DNA of 60,254 nucleotides from Lujinxingiaceae bacterium. Lineage in GTDB: Bacteria; Myxococcota_A; Bradymonadia; Bradymonadales; Bradymonadaceae. The stretch's first letter is position 1. Each line of letters starts with the position of its first letter. The stretch covers positions 1 to 60,254 of the forward strand of contig JACCWM010000057.1 in the NCBI GenBank assembly GCA_013697635.1, in the 5' to 3' direction. The position numbers and the translations under genes were made by a program. The notes below the pieces were generated by a model. That model ran no database searches, was not told where the DNA came from, and worked only from the letters and a program-made list of their open reading frames with translations. Of the stretch, positions 9,258-60,254 are shown piece after piece.

Positions 9258-10028
9258 ATGACCGATCCAAGCCTGACCGCCTCGCATCCGACCTACGTGA
9301 TCTTGTTGTTGTTGGTCCTTGCCGTGCTGATCACCCGTTTCTTGGCGCTGCTCGGGCGCATGGAGGGCGCGCACCGGCTTCGCCGCTGGCTGCCGCTGCT
9401 CTTTGTCGTGGTCTGGACCACGGTGCTGGCCACCAGCGCCCTCGCTTTTGCCAGCGACGGCCTTCAAATGCAGCTGGTGCTCGTGCTCTTCTTTCTTACC
9501 GTCGCCGTGGCGGCATCGCTGGGGTGGCTGCGAAGCCTGGTTGCCGGGATCGTGCTCATCTGGGAGCAGCGCATCCATATCGGCGACAGCATCCGCGCTG
9601 GCGACGTCCAGGGCGAGGTCGTCGCGATCGGCATGCGATCTGTGCGTGTTCGCGACCCCGACGGCGTCTTGCATGAGCTTCCCCATGAACTGCTCATGAA
9701 CCAACCGCTGGCCACACACTCGCGCTCCGGCGAGGTGGTCTGCGACATCGCATTTGTGATTCCCAACTCGATCAACCCCGAACGTGCCCTCGAATTGGCG
9801 CGCGAAGCCGCATCGTTGACGCCGCTGGCCTCACCGCGCCACCGCCCGGAAGCCTTCATGCTCGACGAATCCGGCCCGGGCCAGCCCATCCGCTGCAGCG
9901 TGCGGGGCTACGCGTTTTCGCCCCAGTACCGTGATCACTACCGAAGCGACGTGCTCGCCCGCCTTCACCTCGCGCTGCGTCCTCTGGAGGCTGAGATTCA
10001 GTCCAACATTGCACTAATTGAAGAGTAG
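9258..10028 (+). CDS. MscS-family mechanosensitive channel
   Basis: A 256-residue protein with three or four N-terminal membrane helices, a pore-like helix (AVAASLGWLRSLVAGIVL) and the MscS beta-domain signature GDSIRAGDVQGEVVAIGMRS followed by VRVRDPDGVLHELPHELLM. The length is close to E. coli MscS (286). It starts 12 bases after the antiporter-NTPase gene, so it is almost certainly in the same operon. MscS channels open under membrane tension and release ions during hypo-osmotic shock. Linkage to two antiporters therefore suggests a shared role in turgor or ion balance. Confidence 0.88.
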   Translation: MTDPSLTASHPTYVILLLLVLAVLITRFLALLGRMEGAHRLRRWLPLLFVVVWTTVLATSALAFASDGLQMQLVLVLFFLTVAVAASLGWLRSLVAGIVLIWEQRIHIGDSIRAGDVQGEVVAIGMRSVRVRDPDGVLHELPHELLMNQPLATHSRSGEVVCDIAFVIPNSINPERALELAREAASLTPLASPRHRPEAFMLDESGPGQPIRCSVRGYAFSPQYRDHYRSDVLARLHLALRPLEAEIQSNIALIEE

Positions 10029-10145
10029 TCATTTTTACCATGTCGCATTAAAGTCTCCCCAAAGCGGTGTTAGCGCCTGCACCTTGTGAATCTGCGCCAG
10101 AGCGCGGATTGCCGACCATTCTCTGGCAGTTGGAGATTGATCTCT

Positions 10146-11279
10146 ATGCCACGCCCCATTCGTGCCCTGCTCGTTGGCTTGACAATCGCAGTAGAGAAAG
10201 CCCTCGTCGCCCAGATGAATCCGCTCGGTTTCGACTTCATCACTGCCTCGGCTCAGGGGACCAGCGGCGTCGAAGGTGCACTTGTCGGCGCACCTGTCGA
10301 TGTCATCGTGCTCGACGCCGGTGAGGATCAGGGCGCCGCCCTCGAGCTGCTTGGGCGTTGCAAGGAGCTCTTGCCGGGCTGCCCGGTGATCATGCAAGCC
10401 TCGCCAGCGCAGGCCGGGCTACTGCTCGAAGCGCTTCAATCTGGGCTCGACATCTCGATCGTGCGCATCGACGACGATCAAGTTTGCGCTCAACTGCTCG
10501 GCGCCACGATGCAACGCTTGCTTTGCTCGCCGGATCAGGCCCATCGCAGCTTGCAGATTCGCCACGCCGACAAGATGCAGACCGTCGGACGGATGACCGG
10601 CGGAATAGCTCATGATTTCAACAACTTGCTCACGATCATCACCAGTTACTGCTACTTGTTGATGACCGAGCTCACAGAAGATGACGACACCCTTCGGCCC
10701 AGCATCGACAAGATCTTGCACGCCACCGAGCGTGGGTCCATGCTCTCGCGCCAGCTCATGTCGCTTGGCCGCGCTCAGGCGATGACCAATGAGCCCTTTT
10801 CGTTGAGCGCGATGATTGGAAAAATGGAGCCGCTGCTCCAACAGCTCTTTGGCAAGAAGCTGACCTTGGCCTTCGACCTGGCCGGCGAGTTGCCGCTCAT
10901 CAGCTGTGACCGCGCAAGCCTTGAGCAGGCCGTCTTGAGCCTTGTGGCAAACGCGGCCGACGCCATGCCCGACGGGGGTCAGCTCGACGTCGAGACCAAG
11001 CTTGTCAGCGTCGAGGACGAACTGCTCGCTTGTGATGGGAGTATCGCAGCGGGAGACTACGTCGTGTTGCGAGTTCGTGACAGCGGCCACGGCATCGGCG
11101 ACGCGATTCGCGCTCGCATCTTCGAGCCGTTTTTCTCGACCAAAGCGGCGGCTGCGGGCAGTGGGCTGGGGTTGGCAAGCGTGATGGGCATCGTCAAGCA
11201 GTGCGAGGGCCACATCCACTTGCAAAGCGCGCCCGAGCAGGGCAGCGAGTTCACGATCTATTTGTCCAAACCGAGCTGA
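10146..11279 (+). CDS. Sensor histidine kinase with degenerate N-terminal receiver
   Basis: A 377-residue soluble kinase. Residues 1 to about 125 resemble a response-regulator receiver: a candidate phospho-acceptor Asp in VDVIVLDAGED is present, but the first strand reads ALLVG and lacks the usual acidic pair. The dimerisation/phospho-acceptor helix contains GGIAHDFNNLLTIITSY with the His near residue 160. The ATPase domain shows the N box (AVLSLVANAADAMPDGG), G1 (DSGHGIGD), the F box (IFEPFFSTK) and G2 (GSGLGLASV). There are no membrane helices. ATG 10146 is preceded by GGAG ten bases upstream. It lies 117 bases after the MscS gene on the same strand, so it may be co-regulated. No partner regulator is seen in the window. 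Confidence 0.87.
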   Translation: MPRPIRALLVGLTIAVEKALVAQMNPLGFDFITASAQGTSGVEGALVGAPVDVIVLDAGEDQGAALELLGRCKELLPGCPVIMQASPAQAGLLLEALQSGLDISIVRIDDDQVCAQLLGATMQRLLCSPDQAHRSLQIRHADKMQTVGRMTGGIAHDFNNLLTIITSYCYLLMTELTEDDDTLRPSIDKILHATERGSMLSRQLMSLGRAQAMTNEPFSLSAMIGKMEPLLQQLFGKKLTLAFDLAGELPLISCDRASLEQAVLSLVANAADAMPDGGQLDVETKLVSVEDELLACDGSIAAGDYVVLRVRDSGHGIGDAIRARIFEPFFSTKAAAAGSGLGLASVMGIVKQCEGHIHLQSAPEQGSEFTIYLSKPS

Positions 11280-19471: not shown

Positions 19472-22111
19472 TTAATCCTGGCGAGGCAGGTTTCGCACCG
19501 TGACCGGCTTTGGCGGCAACACGCCCACTGCGCTGCTTCCAAGTTGACCGTGGGCGTTGTGGCCCCAGCAAGAGGCTCGTTGTGTGTTGTCGAGCGCGCA
19601 GCTCGACTCGGCCGTGGCCGCGATCGAGACCGCATTGCTCACCCCAACGACGGCGACCGGCGAGCGGACAAAGCCGAGATTGCCTGCGCCAAGCTGGCCG
19701 TAATTGTTGAGGCCCCAGCAGCTGACCGTGCCACCGGTCAGCAGCGCGCAGGCGTGTTGGCGACCGGCCGTCAGATCCGTGGCACTCGTGGCCAGCACCA
19801 CCGGCAGCGGCGCCAGGGAGCGAATCGCGGGCGACTCCGAGCCAGCCCCGAGTTGACCCTGACTATTTTGGCCCCAGCAATAGACGTTGGGCGCGCTGCT
19901 CTCGACCAACGCGCAGCTGAAGTCCAGGCCGGCAACGACCTGGCTTGCGCTGGCGGGCAGCGCCACCTCCGCCGGCGCACTGCGCGAGAGCTCCGTACCG
20001 TCGCCGAGCTGGCCCTGACTATTTCGGCCCCAGCAATAGACCTTTTGATCGTGAATCGCACAGCCATGCATGTTGCCGGCGGACAACGAAGACATCGGTC
20101 CAAGACCCGAGAGCAGGCCATGGCCTGCGATCACGTTCGTGGTCTCCCGGCCGAGCTGGCCCTCATTGTTATGCCCCCAGCAGACGACGTTTTTGCCCGC
20201 GTCGAGCGCGCAGCTATGACCGTTGCCCGCGCTCAGCTCACTCAAAGCCGACGGCACGTCGGCCAGTGCAGGCACCGGGTCGGGATCGCCAATGAGTGCG
20301 GCCGTGGCTTCGGTTCGGCCAAGCTGGGCGCTGTTGTTTCGGCCCCAACAATAGGTCTTGCCCGTTACGGCCACGGCACAGGTGTGCAATTGGCCAAGCG
20401 CATAGTCGGCGGGCGCGACGTCCTCGGGCCAGAGCACGCCCTCGGGTTTTGCGCGCGAGTCGAAGCTGCCATCGCCCAGCTGGCCGAAGTCGTTGAGCCC
20501 CCAGCAGGCGAACTGGCGTGGCTCGCCGTGGCGCGCGCACATGTGCTTCTCCCCGGCGCGAAGCTCGTGCACCGCCCCGAGTTCAACCTCGAGCGCCACG
20601 AGGCTGACGCTGGACTCACCATTGCCGAGCTGACCGCTGGCGTTGTTGCCCCAGCAGGCCACTTTACCGTTCTCGAGCGCCGCGCAGACCTGAAAGAGAC
20701 CGGAATCGATCTGCGTGGCGGCCACGCCACCCAGATCGATCTCCAGGGGATCACCAATTTGCGCCGGAGCGGGCGCGCCAAGCACGTGAAAACCGTTGTG
20801 GCCCCAGCAAAAAACCTTGCCCTCGAGAGTGCGCGCGCAGGTGTGATCGAGGCCCGTAGCCACCTCGACCACGCCCGCCAGATTCTGAGCGCTGGACTGA
20901 AACCCGCTATTCTTGCCCCGACAAACCAGCTCGCCAGGCTCGACGATGACGCAGGTGTGTTCGTGGAAGGGGGCAATGTCAAGCGCGCGCGACTCCTTCA
21001 AGATCGGCGGGTAGATGTCGCTGACCTGGCCTGATTCGCTGAGCTGGCGCGCGAGGTTGTCACCCCAGCAAAAGACCCGCTCGTCGGCCATGATCGCGCA
21101 GCTCTGACGTATCCCGGAGCGCACCTTTTTGGCCGAGCCGGCCTGCTCCAACAGCTCATCGAGCCGAGATGGCTCACGCGCCGCGCTGGAGACACCGTTG
21201 CCGGTCATTCCATTGACGTTTCCTCCCCAGCACCACACGGCCCCACCGCTTGGCCCCTCTTCCAGAGCGCAGGCATGGTGCGCACCGGCGGAGACGCTCG
21301 TGATCGTGGCCTCGATCGGCACCTTGATCGGCAATGGCGAGCGCAGCATCTCGGCTCCCTGGCCCAACTCTCGCACGGCGTTTCGTCCCCAACACCACAG
21401 CTCACCGCCGACGCGCACGGCGCAACTAAAATAGTAGCCGACGCTGACATCGAGCGCGTCGTGGATGCCCGAGACGGCCACCGGCGTGCGACTCGCGACG
21501 AACGTGCCGTTTCCGAGCTGGCCGAAGGTGTTGTCGCCCCAACAAACCACGCCGCCACCGGCACGCAGCGCGCAGGAATGATCGGCCTGTGTTGACACAC
21601 GAACCACCGAGTCACAGCGATCCTCGCTGCAAATGCCGGCTGGACCACAGGTTCCGCCACAGCACAGATCGGGCGAAACGCTGCGATTGTACTCGCAGCC
21701 GTTGGCGATCTGGCCATCGCAGTCGACGAAGTCTTGCGTGCACTGCTCGATTGCACACACGCCGCCGGTGCACTGCGCCGTGGCGTTGGCCGGCGCGCAC
21801 ACCGAGCCGCAGCCGCCGCAATGTTCCAGGCTATCGAGCTTCGTCTCGCAGCCGTTGTCCGGGTTCTCGTCGCAGTCGCCATAGCCTCGCGGACAGTGCG
21901 AATCGCTGGCGTCACTGTCCGAATCGACGTCGTGTCCGGGCGTGTCGCTGCCGGGCGTATCGCTGCCGGGCGTATCGCTGTCGCCGCGCGCGTCGATGCC
22001 ATCGGCAAAAGACATTTTCTGGGGGTCTTCGATGCATCCACCGATAAAAACAACCAGGCTAAGACCCATCCAAACCAACCAATTATATCGCATCGATGCC
22101 TGTCGTCTCAT
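19472..22111 (-). CDS. RCC1-repeat lipoprotein with Cys-rich N-terminal module
   Basis: An 879-residue secreted lipoprotein. The signal peptide ends in the lipobox IGGC (Cys26). A low-complexity DTPGSDTPGSD linker follows, then a Cys-rich region with GDCDENPDNGCETKLDSLEH and CGGCGSVC, a module common in deltaproteobacterial surface proteins. The rest holds 14 RCC1-type repeats with the core CWGxNxxGQLGxG. Two repeats are degenerate (RELGQG, CRGKNSGFQ). Fourteen repeats fit two seven-bladed propellers. GGAGG lies 8 bases before ATG 22111. It is probably displayed on the outer membrane; its partner is unknown. Confidence 0.88.
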   Translation of the reverse strand: MRRQASMRYNWLVWMGLSLVVFIGGCIEDPQKMSFADGIDARGDSDTPGSDTPGSDTPGHDVDSDSDASDSHCPRGYGDCDENPDNGCETKLDSLEHCGGCGSVCAPANATAQCTGGVCAIEQCTQDFVDCDGQIANGCEYNRSVSPDLCCGGTCGPAGICSEDRCDSVVRVSTQADHSCALRAGGGVVCWGDNTFGQLGNGTFVASRTPVAVSGIHDALDVSVGYYFSCAVRVGGELWCWGRNAVRELGQGAEMLRSPLPIKVPIEATITSVSAGAHHACALEEGPSGGAVWCWGGNVNGMTGNGVSSAAREPSRLDELLEQAGSAKKVRSGIRQSCAIMADERVFCWGDNLARQLSESGQVSDIYPPILKESRALDIAPFHEHTCVIVEPGELVCRGKNSGFQSSAQNLAGVVEVATGLDHTCARTLEGKVFCWGHNGFHVLGAPAPAQIGDPLEIDLGGVAATQIDSGLFQVCAALENGKVACWGNNASGQLGNGESSVSLVALEVELGAVHELRAGEKHMCARHGEPRQFACWGLNDFGQLGDGSFDSRAKPEGVLWPEDVAPADYALGQLHTCAVAVTGKTYCWGRNNSAQLGRTEATAALIGDPDPVPALADVPSALSELSAGNGHSCALDAGKNVVCWGHNNEGQLGRETTNVIAGHGLLSGLGPMSSLSAGNMHGCAIHDQKVYCWGRNSQGQLGDGTELSRSAPAEVALPASASQVVAGLDFSCALVESSAPNVYCWGQNSQGQLGAGSESPAIRSLAPLPVVLATSATDLTAGRQHACALLTGGTVSCWGLNNYGQLGAGNLGFVRSPVAVVGVSNAVSIAATAESSCALDNTQRASCWGHNAHGQLGSSAVGVLPPKPVTVRNLPRQD
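21941..21985. repeat. 15-bp tandem repeat encoding (DTPGS)n linker
   Basis: Three near-identical 15-base units (CGTATCGCTGCCGGG and variants) lie in frame inside the RCC1 lipoprotein gene just after the lipidated N-terminus. They encode repeated Asp-Thr-Pro-Gly-Ser. Copy-number change would keep the frame and alter only the length of the spacer between membrane anchor and folded domains. Confidence 0.75.
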
Positions 22112-48728: not shown

Positions 48729-49682
48729 CTACAACTTCAAGATCGTCGCCGAGCGATCCAACATCGTCTGATCAACTCCCAACGCCCGAAACGTCTCTAA
48801 ATTTCGCTGCAACGGATTCTCGATGCGCCGAAGCGCCATCGCCCGTGCAAACCCAAGCTGCGGCACGAACACCAGCGGCGAGACGGGGATCGGAAAGTCG
48901 CTGCCGAGCAGAATGCGCTCGCGGGCGAGCTCGTGCTTGAGCACGGTGTGGATGTAGGGAAAGCGGGCCATCGAGGCCATCGCCGAGATGTCGCCGTAGA
49001 GCTTGGGATACTCAGCGAGCATGGCAAGCCAGGTCTGAATGTCGTCTTTGAGCAGGTGCAAGACCCCGCCGCCGGCGCAGTGGGCGGCGATCACCGTTGC
49101 GCCCTCCTCGAGCGCCGGGCGAAGCAGCTCGGGCTTGCCAAAGCGCTGGTCGATCACCGGCAGCGCGTGCTCAAACGAGGTGTGGCTCAAGAGCGGGATG
49201 CCAAGCTCGCCCATGCGCCGCCAAAATGGGCGGTAGGCGTCGTTTGAGGGGTCGAAGCCCTGCGTGTTCGGCAGCAGCTTGATCGCCGCCGATCCGGCGC
49301 GCGTGACCCGCTCGAGCTCGGCTATCGCGTCCTTTCGCTGGGGGTTGACCGAGCAGATCGGGATCAGCCGGTCGGACTGCGAGCACACGTCCAGACAATA
49401 GTCGTTGGACACATAGAGGTGCGTGCGCGCCTTGTCGTATTCGCCGTTTTGGTCGTAGACGGCGTCAAAGGCCAGCATGCCGATCGCGTCCAGATCGCTG
49501 TCCGTGACCCATTCGATGAGCTTGTCGCGATAGGCCTCGTCGATGCGCTCGCGCTCGACGTTTTGCAGCTTGAGCACGCGCGAGAGCATAAAGTACATCA
49601 TGCCCGTAGAGAGCTTGGGGCTGACATAGCAGCCGTTGGCCTCGTTCATGGCGATCAGATGGACGTGCAGGTCGATGAGCAT
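48729..49682 (-). CDS. Amidohydrolase-family metal-dependent hydrolase
   Basis: A 317-residue TIM-barrel amidohydrolase of the amidohydrolase-2 (ACMSD-like) type. Metal ligands: HxH in MLIDLHVHL, the His in LLSHTSFEHA, the His in AAHCAGGG, and the Asp in LGSDFPIP. Substrate is unknown; members decarboxylate or hydrolyse aromatic-derived acids. A link to the aminomuconate genes at 13.6-15.5 kb is tempting, since ACMSD belongs to tryptophan breakdown, but the distance is large and the sequence does not decide. Confidence 0.78.
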   Translation of the reverse strand: MLIDLHVHLIAMNEANGCYVSPKLSTGMMYFMLSRVLKLQNVERERIDEAYRDKLIEWVTDSDLDAIGMLAFDAVYDQNGEYDKARTHLYVSNDYCLDVCSQSDRLIPICSVNPQRKDAIAELERVTRAGSAAIKLLPNTQGFDPSNDAYRPFWRRMGELGIPLLSHTSFEHALPVIDQRFGKPELLRPALEEGATVIAAHCAGGGVLHLLKDDIQTWLAMLAEYPKLYGDISAMASMARFPYIHTVLKHELARERILLGSDFPIPVSPLVFVPQLGFARAMALRRIENPLQRNLETFRALGVDQTMLDRSATILKL

Positions 49683-49820
49683 GGACTTCGCCGGCTGTCG
49701 TGCGGTTAGGTGAGGCCGGGGTAGGCCTCGTAGTGAACAAATCTATTGTACAAAGACTATGTGAGGTCCATCATAAACGGCGGTCGGCCCGCAGATTTTG
49801 CCGCGCAGGAGCGCCAGTAC

Positions 49821-51263
49821 GTGATACCCGCCTCAGCAGTAAACACCACAATAGATCGCCAGGCCAGCTTCACGCTCATGTTGCTCTGCGCGGTAGTCTT
49901 CTTGTCCGTGGTCAACGGCACGATGGTCAACGTCGCCCTGCCGATCATCGGCCAGGCCTTCCAGGTCACCGAGGGCACCTATGGCTGGATCGTCACCGGC
50001 AACGCCCTGGCCTTTGGCATCTTCAACGCCGTGCACGGCCGCTTGGCCGACATCGTCGGTATCCGCCGCCTCTATCTACTCGGCATCGTGATCTTTGGCG
50101 CAACGTCGGTGCTCGTCGCCCTCTCGCCGACGATCGAGATCGCGATCGCGCTGCGCGTGTTCCAGGGCGCGGGCAGCGCCGCGATTCCGGCCCTGGGCGC
50201 CATGATCGTGGTTCGCAGCTTCCCGCCTTCCAAGCGCGGCGCCGCGATGGGCCTGATTCTTGGCTCGGTCGGCGTCGCCGCAAGCCTTGGACCGTTTCTG
50301 GGCGGCCTGCTCGTCCAAATCAGCGGCTGGCGCGCCGTTTTTCTCTTTACCAGCGTCGTTTTGCTCGCTGTGCCCGTCGGCCTCAAGCTGCTCCCCAAGA
50401 GCCTCGATGAGCGCATCCCTCAAAAATTCGACGTGCTCGGCGCCTTGCTGCTCGGCATCGGCGTTACCGCCCTGCTCTACAGCTTCAACGTCATCGAGCG
50501 CCTGGGCTTTGGCGCCACCTTCGCTGCGCTGATCGCGATCGGAGTGCTTGGCCTGGCGGCCTTCGGCTGGCGCATCAGCCACACCCCCGAGCCCTTTGCC
50601 CACCCCGATCTCTTTCGCAACACCGGCTTTGTCACGATCACGGCCGTGGCCTTTCTCTCCAACGCCACGCGCTTTGGCACGATCGTCCTGGTCCCGATCT
50701 TTCTCATCGAGGTCAACGGCCTGGCTCCGGTCTGGGTCGGCCTCGTGCTGTTGCCGGGCGCCCTGATGATCGCCGCAATCTCGCCACTCTCCGGCAAGCT
50801 CTCCGATCGCATCGGCGCGCGCCGCCCCGTAGCCGCCGGCATGCTCCTGCTCGTCGCCGGCAACCTCGTCACCGCTTGTTTCGCCGGCGGCAACGTGCTC
50901 GGCGTCACCATCGGCATGGCCCTCTACGGCATGGGCTTCGCCCTGCTCCAGAGCCCGCTCGTCGCCTCGGTCACCCGCGTGCTCGCGCCCCAACGCGCCA
51001 GCGGCGGCATGGGCATCTTCATGATGATCTTCTTTCTCGGCGGCGCCTTCGGCGTCGCCCTGAGCGTCACCGCCGTCGAGCTGCAAAGCCGCGAGGCAGC
51101 GAGCTGGCTGGGATTTTCGTTAGGCGCCGGCGCCCCCTATTCCAACGCGGTCTTGACGCTCACGGGCCTGGCACTGCTCGGGCTCTTGATGCTGCCGGGG
51201 CTGCCAAGCACGCCCGGCGTCGAGGTTGAGAACGCGGCCGATGCGGTCGACGGGCAGAGCTAA
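49821..51263 (+). CDS. MFS drug/proton exporter, DHA2 family
   Basis: A protein of about 480 residues with 12-14 helices. DHA2 features: FLSVVNGTMVNVALPIIGQA in helix 1, motif A GRLADIVGIRRLYLLG between helices 2 and 3, and motif C-like GVAASLGPFLGGLL in helix 5. GTG 49821 is proposed because AGGAG lies ten bases upstream and the N-terminus then has a normal length. The open frame extends to TTG 49746, so the start is uncertain. Substrate unknown; EmrB/QacA-type exporters pump hydrophobic compounds. Confidence 0.87.
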   Translation: MIPASAVNTTIDRQASFTLMLLCAVVFLSVVNGTMVNVALPIIGQAFQVTEGTYGWIVTGNALAFGIFNAVHGRLADIVGIRRLYLLGIVIFGATSVLVALSPTIEIAIALRVFQGAGSAAIPALGAMIVVRSFPPSKRGAAMGLILGSVGVAASLGPFLGGLLVQISGWRAVFLFTSVVLLAVPVGLKLLPKSLDERIPQKFDVLGALLLGIGVTALLYSFNVIERLGFGATFAALIAIGVLGLAAFGWRISHTPEPFAHPDLFRNTGFVTITAVAFLSNATRFGTIVLVPIFLIEVNGLAPVWVGLVLLPGALMIAAISPLSGKLSDRIGARRPVAAGMLLLVAGNLVTACFAGGNVLGVTIGMALYGMGFALLQSPLVASVTRVLAPQRASGGMGIFMMIFFLGGAFGVALSVTAVELQSREAASWLGFSLGAGAPYSNAVLTLTGLALLGLLMLPGLPSTPGVEVENAADAVDGQS

Positions 51264-51644: not shown

Positions 51645-54600
51645 TCAGTCCTTTGGGAGGCGGCGCAGTAGAACTTGAGACCAGTAGCCGAGCGTAGGGA
51701 CAAGGGAGGCAAACACGACATGCTCGCCATCAAACGAGAGCGAAGGGCTCAGGCTGGCGTCCTCGTTCGCGGCGCCGTCGGCGCTCTGGGTCAAGTGGTG
51801 GATCGCACCGCTCTCGATGCTCTTGCGGTAGCTGCGCTTTCGAAAGGGGGTGGTGGTTCCGGCCACGAGGTTTGTCGCCTCGGATTCGAAGACCGCGTAT
51901 CTAGCGTCGGCTGAGAGCGCGGCCTTGCCGCTCAGGGCGTTGGCGTCAACGCCTTCCTCGTTGCTGCTTACGAGCAGTAGCTGCCCGCTCTCGAGGTCTT
52001 TTCGGTAGACACGCGCTTGGATAACCATGGGGGAGGAGACAAGGTTTGTGGCGCGCGTCCCAAAGAGCACGTAGCGCCCGTTCGATGAGATTGATGGGTT
52101 TTCACCGCTCCAATTGGCGTCGACTCCGTCGGCGCGCTGGCTCGCGACCTCGATCTCCCCGCTCTCGAGATCCCTTCGGTAGACGCGCGCGACGTTATAA
52201 AAAAAACCGTCAATCGTAATCCTCGTCGTCGCGCTGACATACGCAACGTATCGTCCATCGGCCGAGATCGAGGGCGCTGCACCGCCGCCGTATGCGTTCT
52301 CGGACTCGGCGCCATAGCTCACGAGGAGCACCTCTCCACTCTCAAAATCCCTGCGGTAAACTTCGGCGCTCCGGATGCCGGTGGCGTCGACGAGGTTTGA
52401 CGCCGTGGAGGCAAAAGCGGCGTACCTTCCGTCCGACGAGAGCGAGGCGGCCCAGCTGGAGTTGTTGGCTACGGCGCCATCAGGAGCCTGAGCCACGAGA
52501 AGGATCTCCGCGCTCTCGACGTCCTTTCGGTAGAGTCTCTCCATGACCGAACTCGCCCCGGCCACCAGGTTTGTCGCCGAGGAGATGAAGATCACGTATC
52601 TGCCGTCGGAGGAGATCGCGGCCACCTGGGCCTGAGCGTTGGCATCGACGCCGGCTGCGCTCTGGCTGACCGGGCGAATTTCCCCGCTCTCGAGATCCTT
52701 GCGGTAGATGCGATTGCGGTGCACGTCGGTGGCACCAACCATAAAATTTCTCGCCGCCGACTCAAAGGCCACGTACTTGCCATCGGACGAGATCTTCGCC
52801 TCGACGCTGCTGCTGTCGCCGCTTGCACCCCCGAAGCTCTCGCTCGCGAGCACTCTTTTGTTGTTGGCGAGATCTTTGCGGTGGATGTGCCATGGGCCCG
52901 TGGGGACGCCGTCCACCGATGCTTGCAGGGCCGAGTTGAATGCCACGTATCGTCCATCCGACGAGAGCGAGGGTGTGTAGATGCGATAGGTACCATCGCC
53001 TCCGGCGTAGAGTTCACTGACGACGACGTTCTCCTGGCTCTCGAGATCTTTGCGGTAGATGCGCCATCTGGGAGTTGCGGCGCCTGCCACGAGGTTGGTC
53101 GCCCCGGTGAAGAACACGACAGATTTACCATCGGCCGAGATCGAGGCACCGTAGCTGTGATTGTCGGCGGTGGTACCTTCGGCGCTCTGGCTGACGAGCA
53201 GGAGCTCGCCGCTCTCGAGGTCTTTTCGGTAAATACGAAAGATGGGGGCGTCGGTGCCGGGCACAAGGTTTGAGGCCACAGAGCTAAAGCTCACATACCT
53301 ACCCCCGGAGGCGATCGAAGCGTCGGAGCAGTTGGCGTTTACGTCGTCTCCCTCGGCCGTCTCACTCACGTGGAGGAGCTCCCCGGTCTGCAAATTCTTG
53401 CGATAAATGCGCGCTCTGCTGACACCCCCCGCGACGAAATTTGTGGCAAGAGATCCAAAGACCACAAACTTGCCGTCAGGCGAATAGCGCGGACCACCGC
53501 TGGCAAAGTCGGCCTCGCTGCTGCCGGCACGCTGGCTTAGCAAGATGACCTCACCGCTCTCGAGATCCTTGCGGTAGACATGCCAGCGACCGGTGGTGGT
53601 CGTGGCGCCGTCGACGAGATTTGTCGCCAGGGATTGAAAGCTTACATAGCGCCCATCGGGCGAAATCGAGGCCTCCCCGCTGTTCGCGTTGGCGTGAACT
53701 CCGCTGTGGCTCTGGCTGACGAGCAGGATTTCACCGCTCTCGAGGTCCTTGCGATAGAGCCGCCACTGGTTTGGCGTGGTCGTGCCTTCGACAAGATTCG
53801 ACGCCGCAGAAGTAAATGCGATGTACCGGCCATCGGCCGAAAGCGAGGGGCCGTCGGACTCGGAGTTGGCCGGCATACCGGCCGCCGTGCTGGTCGCAAG
53901 ATACGCCGAGCCATTGCGGTCGACGACGACGATCTGAGAGGCCGCAATGAACCAGGCGATTCTTTGCCCATCGGCGCTGATGGCTGGCGCCTTGTTGAGA
54001 ACGCCGATCTCACCGAGCCGCCAGCCCGAGACTGTGCTCATCGCCGAAGCCTTGTAGTTCAACCGGATGCTTATGGGACCATGGCTCGTCGAGCATGAAA
54101 ACTCCTGTATGCCGTCAACGGCGCTCAGGGGCAGGTCGATGAGCAATCGGTTTTCGACGAGCGTCGCGTTGTCAGCGAGCGTGGCGCATGCAAAGTGGGC
54201 CGCAGCCTCACCTTGCTCCACAAGGGAGAAGCCATACCACCTGCCCGCGGTGAGGCCATCGACAGCGATCGTGCGGCTTTGGCCGTCACTCACAATCTCG
54301 GGGCTGGTCTGGCCGAGCAACACCGGGTAGCCCGGCAAAAAGGCGATCGAAACACTGTCATCGGTCACAAAAGAATGCTCTTGACCGTACTCAATGCCGG
54401 TGTTGGTCGCAGCATATGCGCGTACGTAATAGTCGGTCCCCAGGGCGAGGTTCGTCACATCGCTTCGGAACCCGCCGGCGCCAGAGGCGCCCCCGAGGGC
54501 GATGCAAGTTCCCGTCGGGAACCTGGGGTTTTCGCTCGTTGCATAGCAGAAGCCGTGGTCGACCACCCTTCGCCCCGCAAACTCTCTGAGCCGCCCGTGA

Positions 54601-54893
54601 AACGTTGCCTGCGTGGCCTCAACGTCGCTGATGGAGTCGGTCTCGACCAACGCCTCGCCAGCGACCGCGTCGGGTCCGACATCGAGACCAGCCACCCGCG
54701 TGTCCTCGGCCGCATCGAAGACGTCCTCCACGGCAGCATCCTCCACGGCAGCGTCCGCCTCACCGACATCGCCACGATCCTCCCCACCGGCCTCACCGCC
54801 GCAAGCCCACACCCCAGAGCACAAAAGCGCGACGAATCCTAGCCGCTGCAGAATCGACGAGCAGCGAGAATAACCCTCCATTGGCATGTCCAT
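51645..54893 (-). CDS. PD40/WD40-like beta-propeller lipoprotein
   Basis: A 1082-residue secreted lipoprotein. The signal LGFVALLCSGVWAC gives lipidated Cys31, followed by an acidic Ala/Asp linker (AAVEDAAVEDVFDAAED). Residues about 90-165 look like a fibronectin-like module (DYYVRAYAATNTGIEYG). From about residue 290 there are about 13 TolB/PD40-type blades, each with SxDGRYVAFxSxATNLV and RIYRKDLESGELLLVSQS. The repeats are very similar to each other, suggesting recent duplication. The start among nearby ATGs is uncertain. Probably a cell-surface protein of unknown partner. Confidence 0.85.
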   Translation of the reverse strand: MDMPMEGYSRCSSILQRLGFVALLCSGVWACGGEAGGEDRGDVGEADAAVEDAAVEDVFDAAEDTRVAGLDVGPDAVAGEALVETDSISDVEATQATFHGRLREFAGRRVVDHGFCYATSENPRFPTGTCIALGGASGAGGFRSDVTNLALGTDYYVRAYAATNTGIEYGQEHSFVTDDSVSIAFLPGYPVLLGQTSPEIVSDGQSRTIAVDGLTAGRWYGFSLVEQGEAAAHFACATLADNATLVENRLLIDLPLSAVDGIQEFSCSTSHGPISIRLNYKASAMSTVSGWRLGEIGVLNKAPAISADGQRIAWFIAASQIVVVDRNGSAYLATSTAAGMPANSESDGPSLSADGRYIAFTSAASNLVEGTTTPNQWRLYRKDLESGEILLVSQSHSGVHANANSGEASISPDGRYVSFQSLATNLVDGATTTTGRWHVYRKDLESGEVILLSQRAGSSEADFASGGPRYSPDGKFVVFGSLATNFVAGGVSRARIYRKNLQTGELLHVSETAEGDDVNANCSDASIASGGRYVSFSSVASNLVPGTDAPIFRIYRKDLESGELLLVSQSAEGTTADNHSYGASISADGKSVVFFTGATNLVAGAATPRWRIYRKDLESQENVVVSELYAGGDGTYRIYTPSLSSDGRYVAFNSALQASVDGVPTGPWHIHRKDLANNKRVLASESFGGASGDSSSVEAKISSDGKYVAFESAARNFMVGATDVHRNRIYRKDLESGEIRPVSQSAAGVDANAQAQVAAISSDGRYVIFISSATNLVAGASSVMERLYRKDVESAEILLVAQAPDGAVANNSSWAASLSSDGRYAAFASTASNLVDATGIRSAEVYRRDFESGEVLLVSYGAESENAYGGGAAPSISADGRYVAYVSATTRITIDGFFYNVARVYRRDLESGEIEVASQRADGVDANWSGENPSISSNGRYVLFGTRATNLVSSPMVIQARVYRKDLESGQLLLVSSNEEGVDANALSGKAALSADARYAVFESEATNLVAGTTTPFRKRSYRKSIESGAIHHLTQSADGAANEDASLSPSLSFDGEHVVFASLVPTLGYWSQVLLRRLPKD

Positions 54894-55117
54894 TCTTCAA
54901 TCGGAGTCGAGGCGCTGGAGGCACCGGATCCTCGGCCCCCCTTGCGCTGGTTGTCAGTGAACAACACTCTCGCAGTGATGCGACGCCACGTAAAGGCCCA
55001 CGTCTTCGGGGTGCTCCCCAATTTCGCGGCCCAAGAAACAAACACCTACCTGGCAGAAGGCTCAGGGAGGCGATGGGCTTTCAATCGCGCGCAGGGCGCG
55101 GTGCTTTGTTCAGGCGC

Positions 55118-55978
55118 CTAGACGCGCTCTTCCTCGACCGCGAGGAGGGACTCGAGATCGGGTTCGTCGGCGATCGGCAGCGGGTCGTGGTTTGGGGCGT
55201 CGTCTGTGGCGTTGGGGATGGCCGGGTCGGTGGTGCTCTCGGTGGTGCGCTGTTCGCCGGGGCGCGTCTTGGCGGCGCGGGCTTCGGCGGCCTGGAGGTT
55301 AGAGAGCAGGCGGCGGCGATCGTCGGCGGGGATGTCGATCAGGTTGAGCGTGGAGAGCAGGGTATTGATCACCTGAATCCAGCGGATGCGCGCCATGCGA
55401 AGGTCGTTGGCGCTGACGCGCGTCTCGTCGGTGTCGCCCCTCAAGGTCGAGCGCTCGGAGACCAGCTCGCCCATGACGGCGGCGTTTTCGAGCCAGGAGT
55501 CGAGGACTTGCTCGAGGTTCTGGGCGCCCATTTGGATCTGGCTGAGGACGTCGCGAATGGCCGGCGTGGCGCGCTCGGCGACGCGCACGGCGTTACCGGA
55601 CTGGTCGAGATAGCTCATCATGTTGATCGAAAGCCCTTCGGGCAAGAGGCTGTCGCGCGCCGCGATGAAGGGGGCGGCGAGCTCGGGGCTGGCGGCGCAG
55701 TCGGCCGCAGATTCCAGGCCGCGGTACATGCCACGCGCGACGCGGTCGTGGATCTGATCGCGGCGAGCGAGCTCGGCGATGATCTCCTGGAGGCGCTGGC
55801 GCAGCTCACCCTCGTCGCGCGAGAGCTTGACCAGGTTGGTCTTGGCAGCCTGGATGAGCACGATGAGGGCGGCGGTCAGAGCGTTGCGCTCGAGAATCGC
55901 GCGACGCACCGGGTTGTTGAGCAGGTCTTTGCTGACGGCGATCATTCCGGAGGTGGTGAGGCTTGCGCGGCTGGACAT
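55118..55978 (-). CDS. Helical protein of unknown function
   Basis: A 286-residue protein I do not recognise. It is mostly helical and soluble, with one mildly hydrophobic helix (ALTAALIVLIQAAK) and charged helices such as LRQRLQEIIAELARRDQ and LSQIQMGAQNLEQVLD. The C-terminal 50 residues are acidic and low in complexity. ATG 55978 has AGGAG at good spacing and is preferred over the longer frame. It has no signal, metal site or P-loop. Confidence 0.68.
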   Translation of the reverse strand: MSSRASLTTSGMIAVSKDLLNNPVRRAILERNALTAALIVLIQAAKTNLVKLSRDEGELRQRLQEIIAELARRDQIHDRVARGMYRGLESAADCAASPELAAPFIAARDSLLPEGLSINMMSYLDQSGNAVRVAERATPAIRDVLSQIQMGAQNLEQVLDSWLENAAVMGELVSERSTLRGDTDETRVSANDLRMARIRWIQVINTLLSTLNLIDIPADDRRRLLSNLQAAEARAAKTRPGEQRTTESTTDPAIPNATDDAPNHDPLPIADEPDLESLLAVEEERV

Positions 55979-56916
55979 GTCTTGCTCCTGTCGTTGGGTA
56001 ATGCCTGAAAGAATAGCCGACCCAACCAATGCACCAAAGGACGCAAAAACGCGCGACTTCAACGAGGCGGGACAGCAAACGTGAGGTTCCCCATACGACA
56101 TACAAGAACCCAGTACGCAAAAGCTGCCAATCGTCACATCTTTTGTCAAGCGCTCCAAAGCACAATTCTTAGCAACCGCCCCCAGATCCCCAAAACAACC
56201 TCGACCTGCCGCTCGAGCACTCCCGAAAACTTTTGACCCGCAGCGAAGTTCCCCGCACGCACTCCCGAGAGCCCCCTTGCCCTCTCGAACCCCCTAAAAA
56301 CAAAGCTTTTTTTCTCGCATCGACTATCGACCCGACCCCAAAATGCTCCTGAGCACCCCGGACCCGCATCGCTGCGCCATTTTGACCCCGCTCACGACCA
56401 TCTTTGACCCGGACCGACAGCGGATCGAGCACTCCGGACATCTTCGACCCCCACCTCCGTCCGCCTCCAGAGGTCTCCCGACTCCTCGCGACTCACCTCC
56501 GTCCGCCCCCCGAGCACGCCGCCCTGCTCGCCAGCAGCCTCAATCCGCCTCTCGAGAACGCCGCCCTCCTCAAAACACCTATGCAGCCGCCCCCAGAATG
56601 CTCTCGACTCCTCACATGGCGGGTCAATCCGCCTCGATAATGTTTTCGGGGCATGCGTTGGACGCGTCGAGGCGCAAAGGACGTGGAACAGCAAGCGTGG
56701 CGTAGGGGCCAACATCAGATGGTGGCTGGTTCAGCGCCAGGATACCATCACGGCACCGAGGAGGAGATCGCTGAGCTGAATTCCCGACGGTGTTTTAGTG
56801 AAGCGCTCTGCTTGGCGTTACCCGGATGATCGTCGAGCGTGGTAAACTCCAAAACTGACGTTACGCGCCATGAGATTTTTTGACTCGCCCAAACCGTTCT
56901 GAAACTTTAGAAGTAC
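55979..56916. other. 938-base gene-poor region with degenerate repeats
   Basis: No intact gene. The stretch 56160-56640 is dominated by drifting copies of a 42-base unit (listed separately). Both strands stay open there only because the unit length is a multiple of three. From 56700 to 56910 nothing is recognised, but it must contain the junction that removed the front of the ATPase gene. Confidence 0.6.
56390..56640 (-). repeat. 42-bp tandem repeat array
   Basis: Read on the minus strand, about six units start GGCGGA-TTGAGG or GGCGGA-CGGAGG and repeat every 42 bases, with GAGGAG and a CGGngtgCTC segment inside. The translated plus strand gives a 14-residue repeat (HLRPPPEVSRLLAT, HLRPPPEHAALLAS, SLNPPLENAALLKT); the minus strand gives RRTEVSREESGDLW and RRIEAAGEQGGVLG. 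Earlier and more decayed units reach to about 56190. The period equals that of the array at 160-440, but the unit sequence differs. Confidence 0.75.
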
Positions 56917-57435
56917 ATGGGCGAGACGGCCGCCAAATTGCGGCTCGTCTTCGAGGCGATGGCGCGCCAACGCGGTGTGTATCTCTTCGACGAATTCGAT
57001 GCTATCGGCTCGCAACGGGCCGCTACAAACGACGTCGGTGAGATTCGGCGAGTGCTCAATAGTTTTTTGCAACTGCTCGAAGACGAGGAGTCGACGAGCC
57101 TGGTGATCGGTGCGACCAATCACGTCGAGATGCTCGACCACGCGCTCTTTCGCCGCTTCGACGATGTCATTCGCTATGAGAACCCCGACGCTCGCCACGC
57201 CATCGAGATGATCCAGAACTACCTCGCGCCCTTCGCGCTCGAGGAGCTGGACTGGCAAACCCTTGGCGCCCTGGCCGAAGGCATGAGTTTTGCCGAGATT
57301 CGCCGCGCCTGCGAGGACGCCGCGAAAGACATGGTCATGGAAGACCGGCCGCACCTCGTCACCGCCGATCTCGTTTTGGCCTTGCAAGAGCGTTATAACT
57401 CCCTTCACCACAGCGCCCAATCTTCGCAATCATAG
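56911..57435 (+). pseudogene. 5'-truncated AAA ATPase, IetA-like
   Basis: About 174 residues of an AAA ATPase that should be about 350. The remaining part starts at KYMGETAAKLRLVFEAM, just after where the Walker A region would be, and keeps Walker B (GVYLFDEFDAIG), the sensor region (LVIGATNH), the Arg finger region (ALFRRFDDVIRY) and the helical C-terminal domain. A TAG stop lies directly before KYM in this frame and no Walker A is found upstream. This arrangement with the next gene resembles the IetA/IetS pair (ATPase plus subtilisin-like protease). As it stands it cannot bind ATP normally. Confidence 0.75.
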
Positions 57436-57461
57436 TGACCTAACCGGGGGAGCCAGCAGTC

Positions 57462-57929
57462 ATGGCAGACAATTCGAGACAGTTGAAACACTTCGTTCTC
57501 GCGAACACCGCAAGCTCGCATCCCTACGCCTACGTGGGCAGCGGCGGCTCCGCTGATTTTCAATGGACCAAGCCTCGCGCTCACGGAGTCGGGATTCTCG
57601 CTCAGATTCAGACTGTGAAGGCAGAACTCGAAGAGCTTGAGGAGCGGCGCAAACATCAAGGTCTGACTGATGTCAGCGCAGACCTCATCGAGTTTCGGGT
57701 GGAGATCACCCGCGCGCTTCCACTGGATAGCTTTGAGGATCTTCGAGCTGGAATCGAACTCGTCTCGTTCAAGATCGATGCAAGCGACTCGTCCTTTGGC
57801 ATCGCGACGGTTCATGTTCCCGAAGGAAAACTGGCTAAGTTCGAAGCCAAGCTCGAAGACTTCCTTAATCCAGACAAGGACTCCGCGAAGAGCGGCAATC
57901 CGCGGCCCTTACCTCGTCTATGGGCATGA
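57462..57929 (+). pseudogene. 3'-truncated subtilase N-terminal part, IetS-like
   Basis: A 155-residue open frame 26 bases after the ATPase remnant. It starts RQLKHFVLANTASSHPYAYV and contains KPRAHGVGILAQIQ, FEDLRAGIELVSFKID and ATVHVPEGKLAKFEAKLEDF. In my recollection these match the N-terminal region of the S8-family proteases paired with such ATPases. The frame ends soon after KSGNPR at about 57905, without any of the Asp/His/Ser catalytic motifs. The protease body has been lost, apparently where the minus-strand Sel1 gene now abuts. Confidence 0.6.
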
Positions 57930-58461
57930 GATGGCCCTTCTTGAGGCGCAAACCGACGCTGACGCAGGCTTCACCCGAGCCGTGACGGCATCCGTCAAGG
58001 AACAGGCGCAGCGCGCGTGCCTCGTCCACTTCGACGCCCACACCGTGCAGATAGAGCATCGCCAAATTGTTGCATCCGTCACCGTATTTTTGCTCGCAAG
58101 CATACGCATATAAGGTGCGCGCAGCGTCGAGATCGATGTGAACGCCCAGGCCCTCAGCCCAGGTGAGCGCGAGATTGTAGCAAGCCAATGCGTGGCCGCG
58201 CTGACAGCCCTTTCGAAAATAGGCGTGGGCCATCAAGAAATCGCCCGGCCGCTTTCGTTTGGCGTAAAACATCCCCGTCTCATGACAGCCCCGATCTGAC
58301 CAGCAGCGGACCGCTGGCACGACCTTCTTGCCGGCTGGCTCTCCGAGTGCCTCGGATTCTTGCGCCAACGGATGCGTTTGGGGCAAAGTCGCCGGCCCGC
58401 TGCTGCAAGCGCTTGCCAGAACTAGCCCGGCCAAGCTGATTCCAAGCCACCATGCTTTCAT
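57865..58461 (-). CDS. Sel1-repeat lipoprotein, possibly with altered C-terminus
   Basis: A 198-residue lipoprotein: signal LAGLVLASAC with Cys19, then Sel1/TPR-like repeats (YFRKGCQRGHALACYNLALT, YACEQKYGDGCNNLAMLYLH, LFLDGCRHGSGEACVSVGLR), each with conserved Cys pairs as in HcpA-type beta-lactamase-like proteins. GAGGAG precedes ATG 58461. The last 25 residues (PIDEVRAADCRSSRSPCLD) no longer look repetitive and overlap the truncated protease gene, so the true C-terminus may have been cut by the same rearrangement. Confidence 0.8.
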   Translation of the reverse strand: MKAWWLGISLAGLVLASACSSGPATLPQTHPLAQESEALGEPAGKKVVPAVRCWSDRGCHETGMFYAKRKRPGDFLMAHAYFRKGCQRGHALACYNLALTWAEGLGVHIDLDAARTLYAYACEQKYGDGCNNLAMLYLHGVGVEVDEARALRLFLDGCRHGSGEACVSVGLRLKKGHLMPIDEVRAADCRSSRSPCLD

Positions 58462-58622
58462 CGTTCTCCTCGCAGGCTCGCACCGTGGGCAAAGTCATCA
58501 CAGAACGACCACCCGCAGTGCTTGTTCCAAGGTGCTAGCTGTTAGGGAAACGGACCGTGAGACGCGCACGGCCCTGCTATTGTGTGGCATTGGCCAGGGG
58601 AGCCGTGCGTCGCAGCCCGTAA

Positions 58623-59540
58623 CTACCCTGGCGTGCCGTCGGCCATGGTGTCGTCGAGTTTTTGATCGTCGATCGCGGCCGGGCGTTTGTGGACGCCGAA
58701 ATAGTACATTGTGGCGGCGCCGGTCATGAACATGATCAGGCTGTAGATGCCGCCGGGGAGGGCCATCTCGCCCTGGCGTAGGATCGACGTCGCGATCACG
58801 ATGGCGAGCGTGCCGTTTTGGATTCCGGACTCGATCGAGATCGAGATCGCCTGCGGGGTCTTGAGGGCGAGCAGGCGCGCGCTGCCAAAGCCGATGAGCA
58901 TCATGATGATGTTCAAGGCAGCGGTGACGCCGCCGAGCGCGAGGAAGTGCTCGCGCAAGCCGTCGCGGTTGGCCAGGATCACGCCGGCCACGATCAGGGT
59001 GAAGATGATCGTCGAGCCCAGGCGCGCCGGGCGCTCCATGCGCTGGGCAAAGGCCGGCTTGAAGTGGCGCACGATCATGCCCAGCAGCACCGGCAACAGC
59101 GTGACCCCGGCGATCTGTCCGATCGTCTGCCCCAGCGGCACGTTCACCTCGCGCGACTCGCCCATGAAATAGTCCAGCGAAAGGACCAGGATCACCGGCA
59201 GAGTGAGCACCACCACCAGGCCGCTGATCGCCGTCAAGGTGATCGAGAGCGCCGTATCGCCGCGCGCCACGTAGGTGATCAGATTCGAGGTCACGCCACC
59301 TGGACAACAGGCGATCAGCATCAATCCCACCGCCATCGCCGGCGAAAGCTCAAAGGCAATCGCCAGCCCAAAGGCCACCACCGGCAAGAGCACGAGCTGA
59401 TTGAAAAGCCCGATTGCCACGGCCCTTGGAAAGACGACCACGCGTCTGAAATCGCCCACCACAAGCGACAAGCCCACACCCAACATGATGATGAACAACG
59501 ACAGGGGCAGGACCACCGACGTCAAAATGCTCTCTTCCAT
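58623..59540 (-). CDS. Bile acid:sodium symporter (BASS) family transporter
   Basis: A 305-residue membrane protein with about ten helices. BASS features: LMLIACCPGGVTSNLITYVA in the first crossover region and IESGIQNGTLAIVIATSIL in the second, with the ESGIQNG motif close to the canonical E(x)GxQN sodium site. These carriers import organic anions with Na+, but bacterial members have varied substrates such as pantoate or pyruvate-like acids. ATG 59540 is preferred over GTG 59546. Confidence 0.88.
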   Translation of the reverse strand: MEESILTSVVLPLSLFIIMLGVGLSLVVGDFRRVVVFPRAVAIGLFNQLVLLPVVAFGLAIAFELSPAMAVGLMLIACCPGGVTSNLITYVARGDTALSITLTAISGLVVVLTLPVILVLSLDYFMGESREVNVPLGQTIGQIAGVTLLPVLLGMIVRHFKPAFAQRMERPARLGSTIIFTLIVAGVILANRDGLREHFLALGGVTAALNIIMMLIGFGSARLLALKTPQAISISIESGIQNGTLAIVIATSILRQGEMALPGGIYSLIMFMTGAATMYYFGVHKRPAAIDDQKLDDTMADGTPG

Positions 59541-59648
59541 GATCACAGCCCTCGATTTGGAGGTTCAAGCCAACCTGAAGACGTAAAACACGGCTGCGTT
59601 GCCAACGCAAGACGTCTGACCCTGCGCGCTCGCTGTTCAACAATGCCA

Positions 59649-59755
59649 ACGGAAACGGAAAACGGAAACGAAAACGGAAACGGAAACGGAGACGGAAACG
59701 GAAACGTAAACGTAAACGGAAACGGAAACGTAAACGGAAACGGAAACGGAAACGG
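59649..59755. repeat. Hexanucleotide (ACGGAA)n microsatellite
   Basis: About 17-18 copies of ACGGAA with some ACGTAA, ACGAAA and ACGGAG variants lie between dnaX and the BASS gene. It is entirely intergenic; a frame through it would encode only Asn-Gly repeats. It is likely variable in copy number by slippage. Confidence 0.92.
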
Positions 59756-59767
59756 CCCTGTTTGGCG

Positions 59768-60254
59768 CTACTCGTCGAAGAGCTTGACTTGGACGCGGGG
59801 GTCTTCGGCGTCGAAGAGCTCCTGGGCGGCTTTGATGGTGGGGTTTTGGCGGATCTCTTCGATGAGGTTGTTGCGCCGGCGCAGGGTGTCCTCGTCGCGT
59901 TGTTGGGCGAGGGTGGTGTGGGCTGGGGGTTCGTCGTCGGTGAGGCGGCGCTCGATTTGGAGGCGGTAGGTGGGGCCGAAGTGGTGTTGGATGGTGGCCT
60001 GAATCATGGCGAGGCGCGGTTGATCCTCGGCGAAGGACATGTGGGCGTCGAGGAAGGAGAGGCGCACGAGGTCGGCGTCGAATTGCTCGAGGTAGGCGTG
60101 CTCGCAGATGCCGGCGGTGGGCATCTCCTGGTTTTGGCGGAGCTGGTGGACGAGGTATTTCCAGCGGGCTTGGGGGTCGGTGGGGGGGGCGTCTTCGTTC
60201 ACGTTCTCGATCACGTTCTCGATCACGTTCTCGATCACGTTCTCGATCACGTTC
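59768..60254 (-). CDS. dnaX: DNA polymerase III gamma/tau subunit, C-terminal part (partial)
   Basis: The last 160 or so residues of a gene running off the window's end. The segment WKYLVHQLRQNQEMPTAGIC then LVRLSFLDAHMSFAED and IQHHFGPTYRLQIERR resembles the C-terminal tau region of bacterial DnaX. The upstream visible part is a repeated IENV linker and an acidic NEDAPP segment. The clamp-loader ATPase domains would lie outside the window. The identification is fair rather than certain, because this region is poorly conserved. Confidence 0.62.
   Translation of the reverse strand, partial: NVIENVIENVIENVIENVNEDAPPTDPQARWKYLVHQLRQNQEMPTAGICEHAYLEQFDADLVRLSFLDAHMSFAEDQPRLAMIQATIQHHFGPTYRLQIERRLTDDEPPAHTTLAQQRDEDTLRRRNNLIEEIRQNPTIKAAQELFDAEDPRVQVKLFDE
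60196..60254. repeat. 12-bp tandem repeat inside the dnaX-like gene
   Basis: GTTCTCGATCAC repeats about 4.5 times up to the window end and encodes (Ile-Glu-Asn-Val)n on the minus strand. The array stays in frame and lengthens a linker before the C-terminal domain. It may continue outside the window. Confidence 0.9.

Follow-up and report, generated by a model that had tools for sequence, protein, structure and literature searches.

Does the 1-kb stretch at positions 56911 to 57929, near the end of a contig from a Lujinxingiaceae bacterium, hold the remains of an IetAS module, and if so, how were its two ends lost? The window analyzed here is the whole stretch of 60,254 nucleotides (GenBank assembly GCA_013697635.1, contig JACCWM010000057.1), and a preliminary description made from its letters alone had read the locus as a decayed AAA ATPase plus subtilase pair, front and back missing around a well-preserved middle, and as the mark of a former defense island. 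In intact IetAS pairs, the AAA ATPase IetA serves as antitoxin or controller and the subtilisin-like protease IetS as toxin; such pairs stabilize plasmids and islands and are listed as an antiphage system, and a 2020 paper is said to include IetAS among the defense systems. The locus described below (Table 1) is very probably a dead, truncated copy of this module.

Table 1. Features of the locus, with the state of IetS in related loci
Feature	Position or locus	Strand	Remark
Divergent left neighbor, family without Pfam match	55118..56158	-	best homologue in the defense island of genome G013
In-frame TAG	56908..56910	+	abuts the homologous stretch; left break at ~56911
ietA remnant	56911..57435	+	residues 161-334 of G018 IetA, KYMGE position to stop
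Spacer	57436..57461	+	26 bp (24 bp in G018); ribosome-site-like GGGGGAG at 57446-57452 (by eye)
ietS remnant	57462..57929	+	residues 1 to ~152 of 848; no catalytic residue
Right junction zone	57898..57916	.	ietS homology (+) and Sel1-repeat homology (-) both stop
Sel1-repeat lipoprotein-like gene	57865..58461	-	ends mid-repeat; Pfam Sel1 E=6.2e-11
Relatives: no IetS	L041, L107
Relatives: short N-terminal IetS piece	L044, L115
Relatives: IetS with in-frame loss of ~170-719	L078
Relatives: IetS interrupted by stops or changes of frame, part of them possibly sequencing errors	L050, L073, L089, L093, L102

The ATPase frame, which encodes 174 residues up to a stop codon at 57433-57435, is of the IetA type by profile. 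PADLOC assigned it to IetA (PDLC02196, E=1.9e-43, profile positions 162-325 of 374), far ahead of TRIP13 (E=3.3e-11) and with a match to DolB also weaker, and a profile of homologous IetA proteins matched at 2.1e-78 (positions 160-323 of 328). The Pfam match to the AAA domain (E=5.6e-16) begins at position 37 of the 131 in the profile, which leaves the domain without its front. As the preliminary description had stated, KYMGETAAK begins right behind a stop codon. Homology to the IetA of G018, the nearest relative and a member of the same family, begins at 56911-56914, and the identity to residues 161-334 of that protein is 72% (73% in the search of the phylum). The N-terminal 160 residues, including Walker A, are absent, so that the frame is not a complete ATPase, and a profile search with IetA positions 1-159 gave no convincing match anywhere in the window. 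The start does lie after Walker A, but the earlier wording that it lies exactly past this motif was loose, since residue 161 is located 25 residues beyond T136, with which Walker A ends in the intact IetA of G018. Beyond the Pfam match, the remnant carries what we take to be Walker B (DEFD), the motifs ATN and RRFD, and the lid, and its KYMGE/RYMGE position presumably corresponds to the pore loop 1 site of p97-like ATPases. An ATG is present within the frame at 56917.

The downstream frame comprises 155 residues, of which the codons after approximately 57904-57914 are without homology. Taken alone, it showed no Pfam match, no PADLOC match, and no recognizable protease feature, and its link to the subtilases runs solely via full-length IetS homologues. 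It was matched at 5e-19 over positions 1-142 of 828 by a profile built from 61 intact IetS proteins of other genomes, and it is 48% identical to residues 1-152 of G018 IetS (153 columns). In G018, an intact pair consists of IetA (334 aa), a 24-bp gap, and an 848-aa protein that is recognized as IetS by PADLOC (2e-42) and contains Peptidase_S8 (Pfam) at residues 281-624. The ietS frame, ending at around residue 152, stops ahead of this domain; an IetS is thus present next to IetA as an N-terminal piece only, and the subtilisin-like protease domain with its catalytic triad was not found. The earlier statement that the protease gene ends after its N-terminal domain was right in that no catalytic motif is reached, whereas the frame in fact stops inside the N-terminal region and not at its end. 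Profiles, gene order, the 26-bp spacing, and the intact same-family pair in G018 together bear out a truncated IetA/IetS pair with both front and back lost, leaving IetA 161-334 and IetS 1 to ~152.

AlphaFold2 was used to model the ietS piece with 48 homologues. The model was of middling quality (pLDDT 74, pTM 0.54) and consisted of one helix followed by a beta-alpha-beta-beta-alpha unit; its fold matches were weak (best Z 6.1), with no subtilisin pro-peptide among the matches listed, and no solved structure related by sequence to the piece was found. In a model of residues 61-650 of G018 IetS (pLDDT 83), for which fold searches returned subtilisins over the protease domain, a second beta-alpha-beta unit is predicted at ~184-247, adjoining the protease; according to these models, the remnant would retain the first such unit only, the second lying outside it. 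A profile of the subtilisin pro-peptide (I9) gave 0 matches in 49 N termini. The notion that the ietS piece acts as a free, pro-peptide-like inhibitor is weighed down by the missing I9 match, the weak fold matches, and the absence of the protease-adjacent unit.

Homologues of full length are the rule. IetA matches (E<=1e-20) occurred in 33 of the 377 genomes of the phylum, the present one included. Among 109 IetA homologues (80 kept of 151 related genome_contigs loci plus 29 loci from the phylum), 108 are full length (>=295 aa), and the remaining one (175 aa) is cut by its contig end; the possibility that full-length homologues are as short as these frames therefore does not apply. The ietS piece found matches in 14 of 356 genomes, again counting the present one. 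In 12 of these the matched open frame measures 826-1014 aa; the two short exceptions are the frame in this genome (161 aa) and one of 267 aa in G175. In the plasmid collection, the ietA piece matched 854 records, the best of them under 60-80% identity, and the ietS piece had no match.

The missing parts were sought in the genome itself, a 6.2-Mb draft in 213 contigs, and were not found. Apart from itself, the ietA remnant matched seven AAA genes (27-35% identity), the N-terminal part of IetA matched 8 places by weak AAA similarity of 30-45% identity only, and the ietS piece matched nothing besides itself. The protease part of IetS likewise gave no match, an empty result that shows little without a positive control; the identical search method with the short N-terminal part of ietS did recover IetS in the 14 genomes mentioned above.

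The surviving middle is well preserved, in line with the preliminary description. A set of 100 IetA proteins has 50 columns with 95% conservation; the remnant keeps 49 of them and violates one (L to M), while in a leave-one-out comparison 36 of the 100 intact genes depart in at least one of these columns. At codon positions 1 and 2, remnant and G018 are about equally far from six intact outgroups; GC3 is 0.75 and 0.61 for the two remnant frames vs 0.72 and 0.64 for the G018 copy, and neither short frame contains an internal stop or frameshift. With the middle unaccelerated and 49 of 50 columns kept, the loss appears to have been sudden and recent. Nothing points to a long period of neutral drift; either the frames were truncated recently or constraint on them persists. 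The term decayed therefore suits the ends; it does not suit the middle, where extra substitutions are absent, and a gradual in situ decay of the pair is not favored for the same reason.

The right end of the remnant coincides with the end of a second gene. DNA homology to G018 stops at 57904 and protein homology by 57914; the Sel1 protein has 198 residues, yet 10 of the 14 alignments to family members listed for it end at residues 182-188 and none extends further, and its final ~11-12 codons are antisense ietS sequence. That both genes end in one zone points to a deletion or rearrangement junction, and a single junction seems to have cut both. We infer that the remnant is nonfunctional, recent, and made by deletion; the nature of the event (deletion, insertion, or misassembly) is read from the sequence of this one genome. 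One or two rearrangements, probably deletions by end joining, would have struck ietAS. On the left, the promoter side and the N-terminal half of ietA with Walker A would have been lost, and on the right, all of ietS past approximately residue 152, with the 3' end of the Sel1 gene cut at the same point; the leftover could then neither hydrolyze ATP nor cut protein.

Among the competing explanations, the strongest, although clearly the less probable one, is that the 1-kb piece is a foreign ietAS fragment captured by illegitimate recombination, e.g., after DNA uptake. Sharp ends and an undamaged middle fit such a single event, the composition is close to that of the intact G018 copy (GC3), and no further sign of mobile elements or defense systems was seen in the flanks; a simple insertion, however, should leave the remainder of the Sel1 gene to the left of the piece, where none of the listed open reading frames is Sel1-like by eye, and the best homologue of the left neighbor lies near ietA in G013. 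An assembly error, in which a 1-kb ietAS unitig was misjoined at both sides, appears improbable: it would suit a draft of this many contigs and two sharp ends, but needs two misjoins around 1 kb within a 60-kb contig, and neither a long repeat at the junctions (none in 55000-60254) nor any other ietAS piece in the assembly was detected.

Truncation of a former module also has to be set against readings in which the frames still work or are something else. The two short frames may still be under selection, given the very well kept middle, the ATG at 56917 in the ietA frame, and the ribosome-site-like sequence before ietS. That they were retained as a working mini-module, e.g., one that binds the IetA or IetS of an incoming IetAS and so blunts it, is nevertheless highly unlikely. 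The absence of internal stops and frameshifts, the unaccelerated rate, and the existence of relatives with a full-length IetA and a broken or missing IetS speak for it; against it stand the IetA fragment without Walker A, the fact that this is a single case, the position outside the remnant of the protease-adjacent domain, where a subtilisin pro-peptide would sit, and the lack of a promoter pattern (sigma-70 type, 55900-58700: 0 found, 0.5 expected, a count that says little for this phylum). No better odds can be given to its decoy version, a selected anti-addiction relic whose IetA fragment (pore loop, Walker B, arginine region, and lid) and IetS N-domain would bind incoming IetAS partners and blunt their toxicity. 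Assignment of the ATPase frame to another AAA family (TRIP13, DolB, or p97-like) is in effect refuted: TRIP13 and DolB profiles do match and p97 is among the best solved relatives of G018 IetA, but IetA leads TRIP13 by 32 orders of magnitude in E value, the best matches are IetA proteins, and an IetS N terminus follows downstream at the usual spacing.

The surroundings do not show that the locus marks a former defense island. PADLOC gave no match for five neighboring genes (48729-49682, 49746-51263, 51645-54893, 55118-56008, and 57865-58461), Pfam identified a bile-acid-symporter-like transporter, an amidohydrolase, an MFS transporter, a PD40 protein, and housekeeping genes in the neighborhood, and no tRNA was found. 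When 16 genes of the window (SBF, Sel1, the left neighbor, and 13 more) were compared with 18 regions taken from relatives, no flank arrangement was shared with an iet site, and no sister genome with matching flanks, in which an intact copy at the same site could be sought, was found. The sole hint comes from G013, whose contig C22 carries the best homologue of the left neighbor (46% identity, 21021-21806) about 10 kb from a full-length IetA (9971-10453), divergent in both genomes, together with DarT, a macro-domain DarG-like gene, an N6 methylase, and HsdR, i.e., a defense island. The left-neighbor family occurs in 8 of 21 genomes of the family, with 5 copies in the present one, and since it is multicopy in some genomes, this co-location is suggestive only.

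Known pairs share the same layout. Like IetAS, a toxin-antitoxin module of pTiC58 and a PADLOC defense system, the remnant has the IetA profile, the IetS N terminus, the order of ATPase before protease, and a short spacer; unlike it, the remnant lacks Walker A and the entire protease domain and is not a working member. According to PMC5006074, SgiAT of SGI1 is a working pair of an ATPase antitoxin and a subtilisin-like toxin, whose identity to the pTiC58 proteins is 50% (IetA) and 36% (IetS), and PMC8562856 describes a Mycoplasma AAA/subtilisin pair as behaving likewise, deletion of the ATPase alone being reported as lethal. IetAS is counted as antiphage with an unknown mechanism in PMC11878078 and PMC9958689. 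To judge from such descriptions, SgiAT (Salmonella genomic island 1) and TA132/3 (Mycoplasma mycoides capri) follow the same logic of an ATPase antitoxin before a subtilisin-like toxin, and both are intact and tested, unlike the remnant. From the activities given in the cited papers for SgiAT, the mycoplasma pair, and IetAS, a copy without Walker A and protease is predicted to be inert. No report of a truncated IetAS was among the papers listed for IetA, IetS, and IetAS. The locus records that an IetAS module was lost, and both break points can be read in the sequence; as a truncated copy of a known system, it is an ordinary find and leaves the understanding of IetAS unchanged.

Loss of the protease half is fairly frequent among relatives. 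A single complete IetS frame is present at 63 of the 80 genome_contigs loci, and 73 are assessable, as L045, L062, L064, L076, and L092 run off their contigs and L055 and L079 end too close to the contig end; IetS is broken or absent in 10 of the 73 (Table 1). IetA is full length in nine of these ten, the IetA of L050 being cut by the contig end, and in 0 of the 109 homologues is IetA truncated save the contig-end one. In the phylum set, IetS of L012 (G175) stops after approximately profile position 165, and L014, L023, L027, and L036 have no IetS profile match within 1.5 kb, L036 showing by eye a short frame resembling the start of IetS behind IetA. In L012 and L078, IetS is lost after ~165-170, and the remnant resembles them in its cut IetS; L012 differs from it by a full-length IetA with Walker A, and L078 by its P-loop, written GSPGTGKT. 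The loss pattern agrees with toxin-antitoxin logic without being significant evidence of it: a difference of this kind is expected at roughly the 6-15% level (arithmetic estimate), because the search required the C-terminal half of IetA and because the length of IetS is about five times that of the remainder of IetA, and the asymmetry was rejected as such evidence.

In L078 (3143-3898), an IetS-like frame joins ~31-170 to 719-827 without the protease domain, beside a 328-aa IetA. L120 (6162-8940, G013 C22) encodes a full-length IetA and no IetS; DarT and the DarG-like macro-domain gene come next, with overlaps of 4 bp, and the arrangement is a possible IetA-DarTG operon; among the scanned loci, DarT matched in L120 only, plus L089 at a distance. 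The arrangement of IetA followed by DarTG without IetS in G013 (L014) is unlike the remnant in having a full-length IetA with Walker A. In L107 (5509-7833), IetA without IetS precedes genes that by eye are transglycosylase- and nucleotidyltransferase-like.

Tandem arrays of 41-43 nt, differing in sequence from place to place, lie within ~1 kb of 8 of 15 loci of the left-neighbor family, the window included (55118-56158 and 56452-56571; further L161, L162, L164, L168, L169, L171, and L172). Control loci carried them in 0 of 20 cases for SBF and in 1 of 20 for Sel1, this one being the window's own array; the association has a Fisher p of 2e-5 without the window, the loci not being independent. 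A second array of 42 nt, with ~5.5 copies, occupies positions 159-443 at the opposite end of the window, and short arrays with 6-nt (AACGGA) and 12-nt units are found near the contig end (59648-59755 and 60195-60254).
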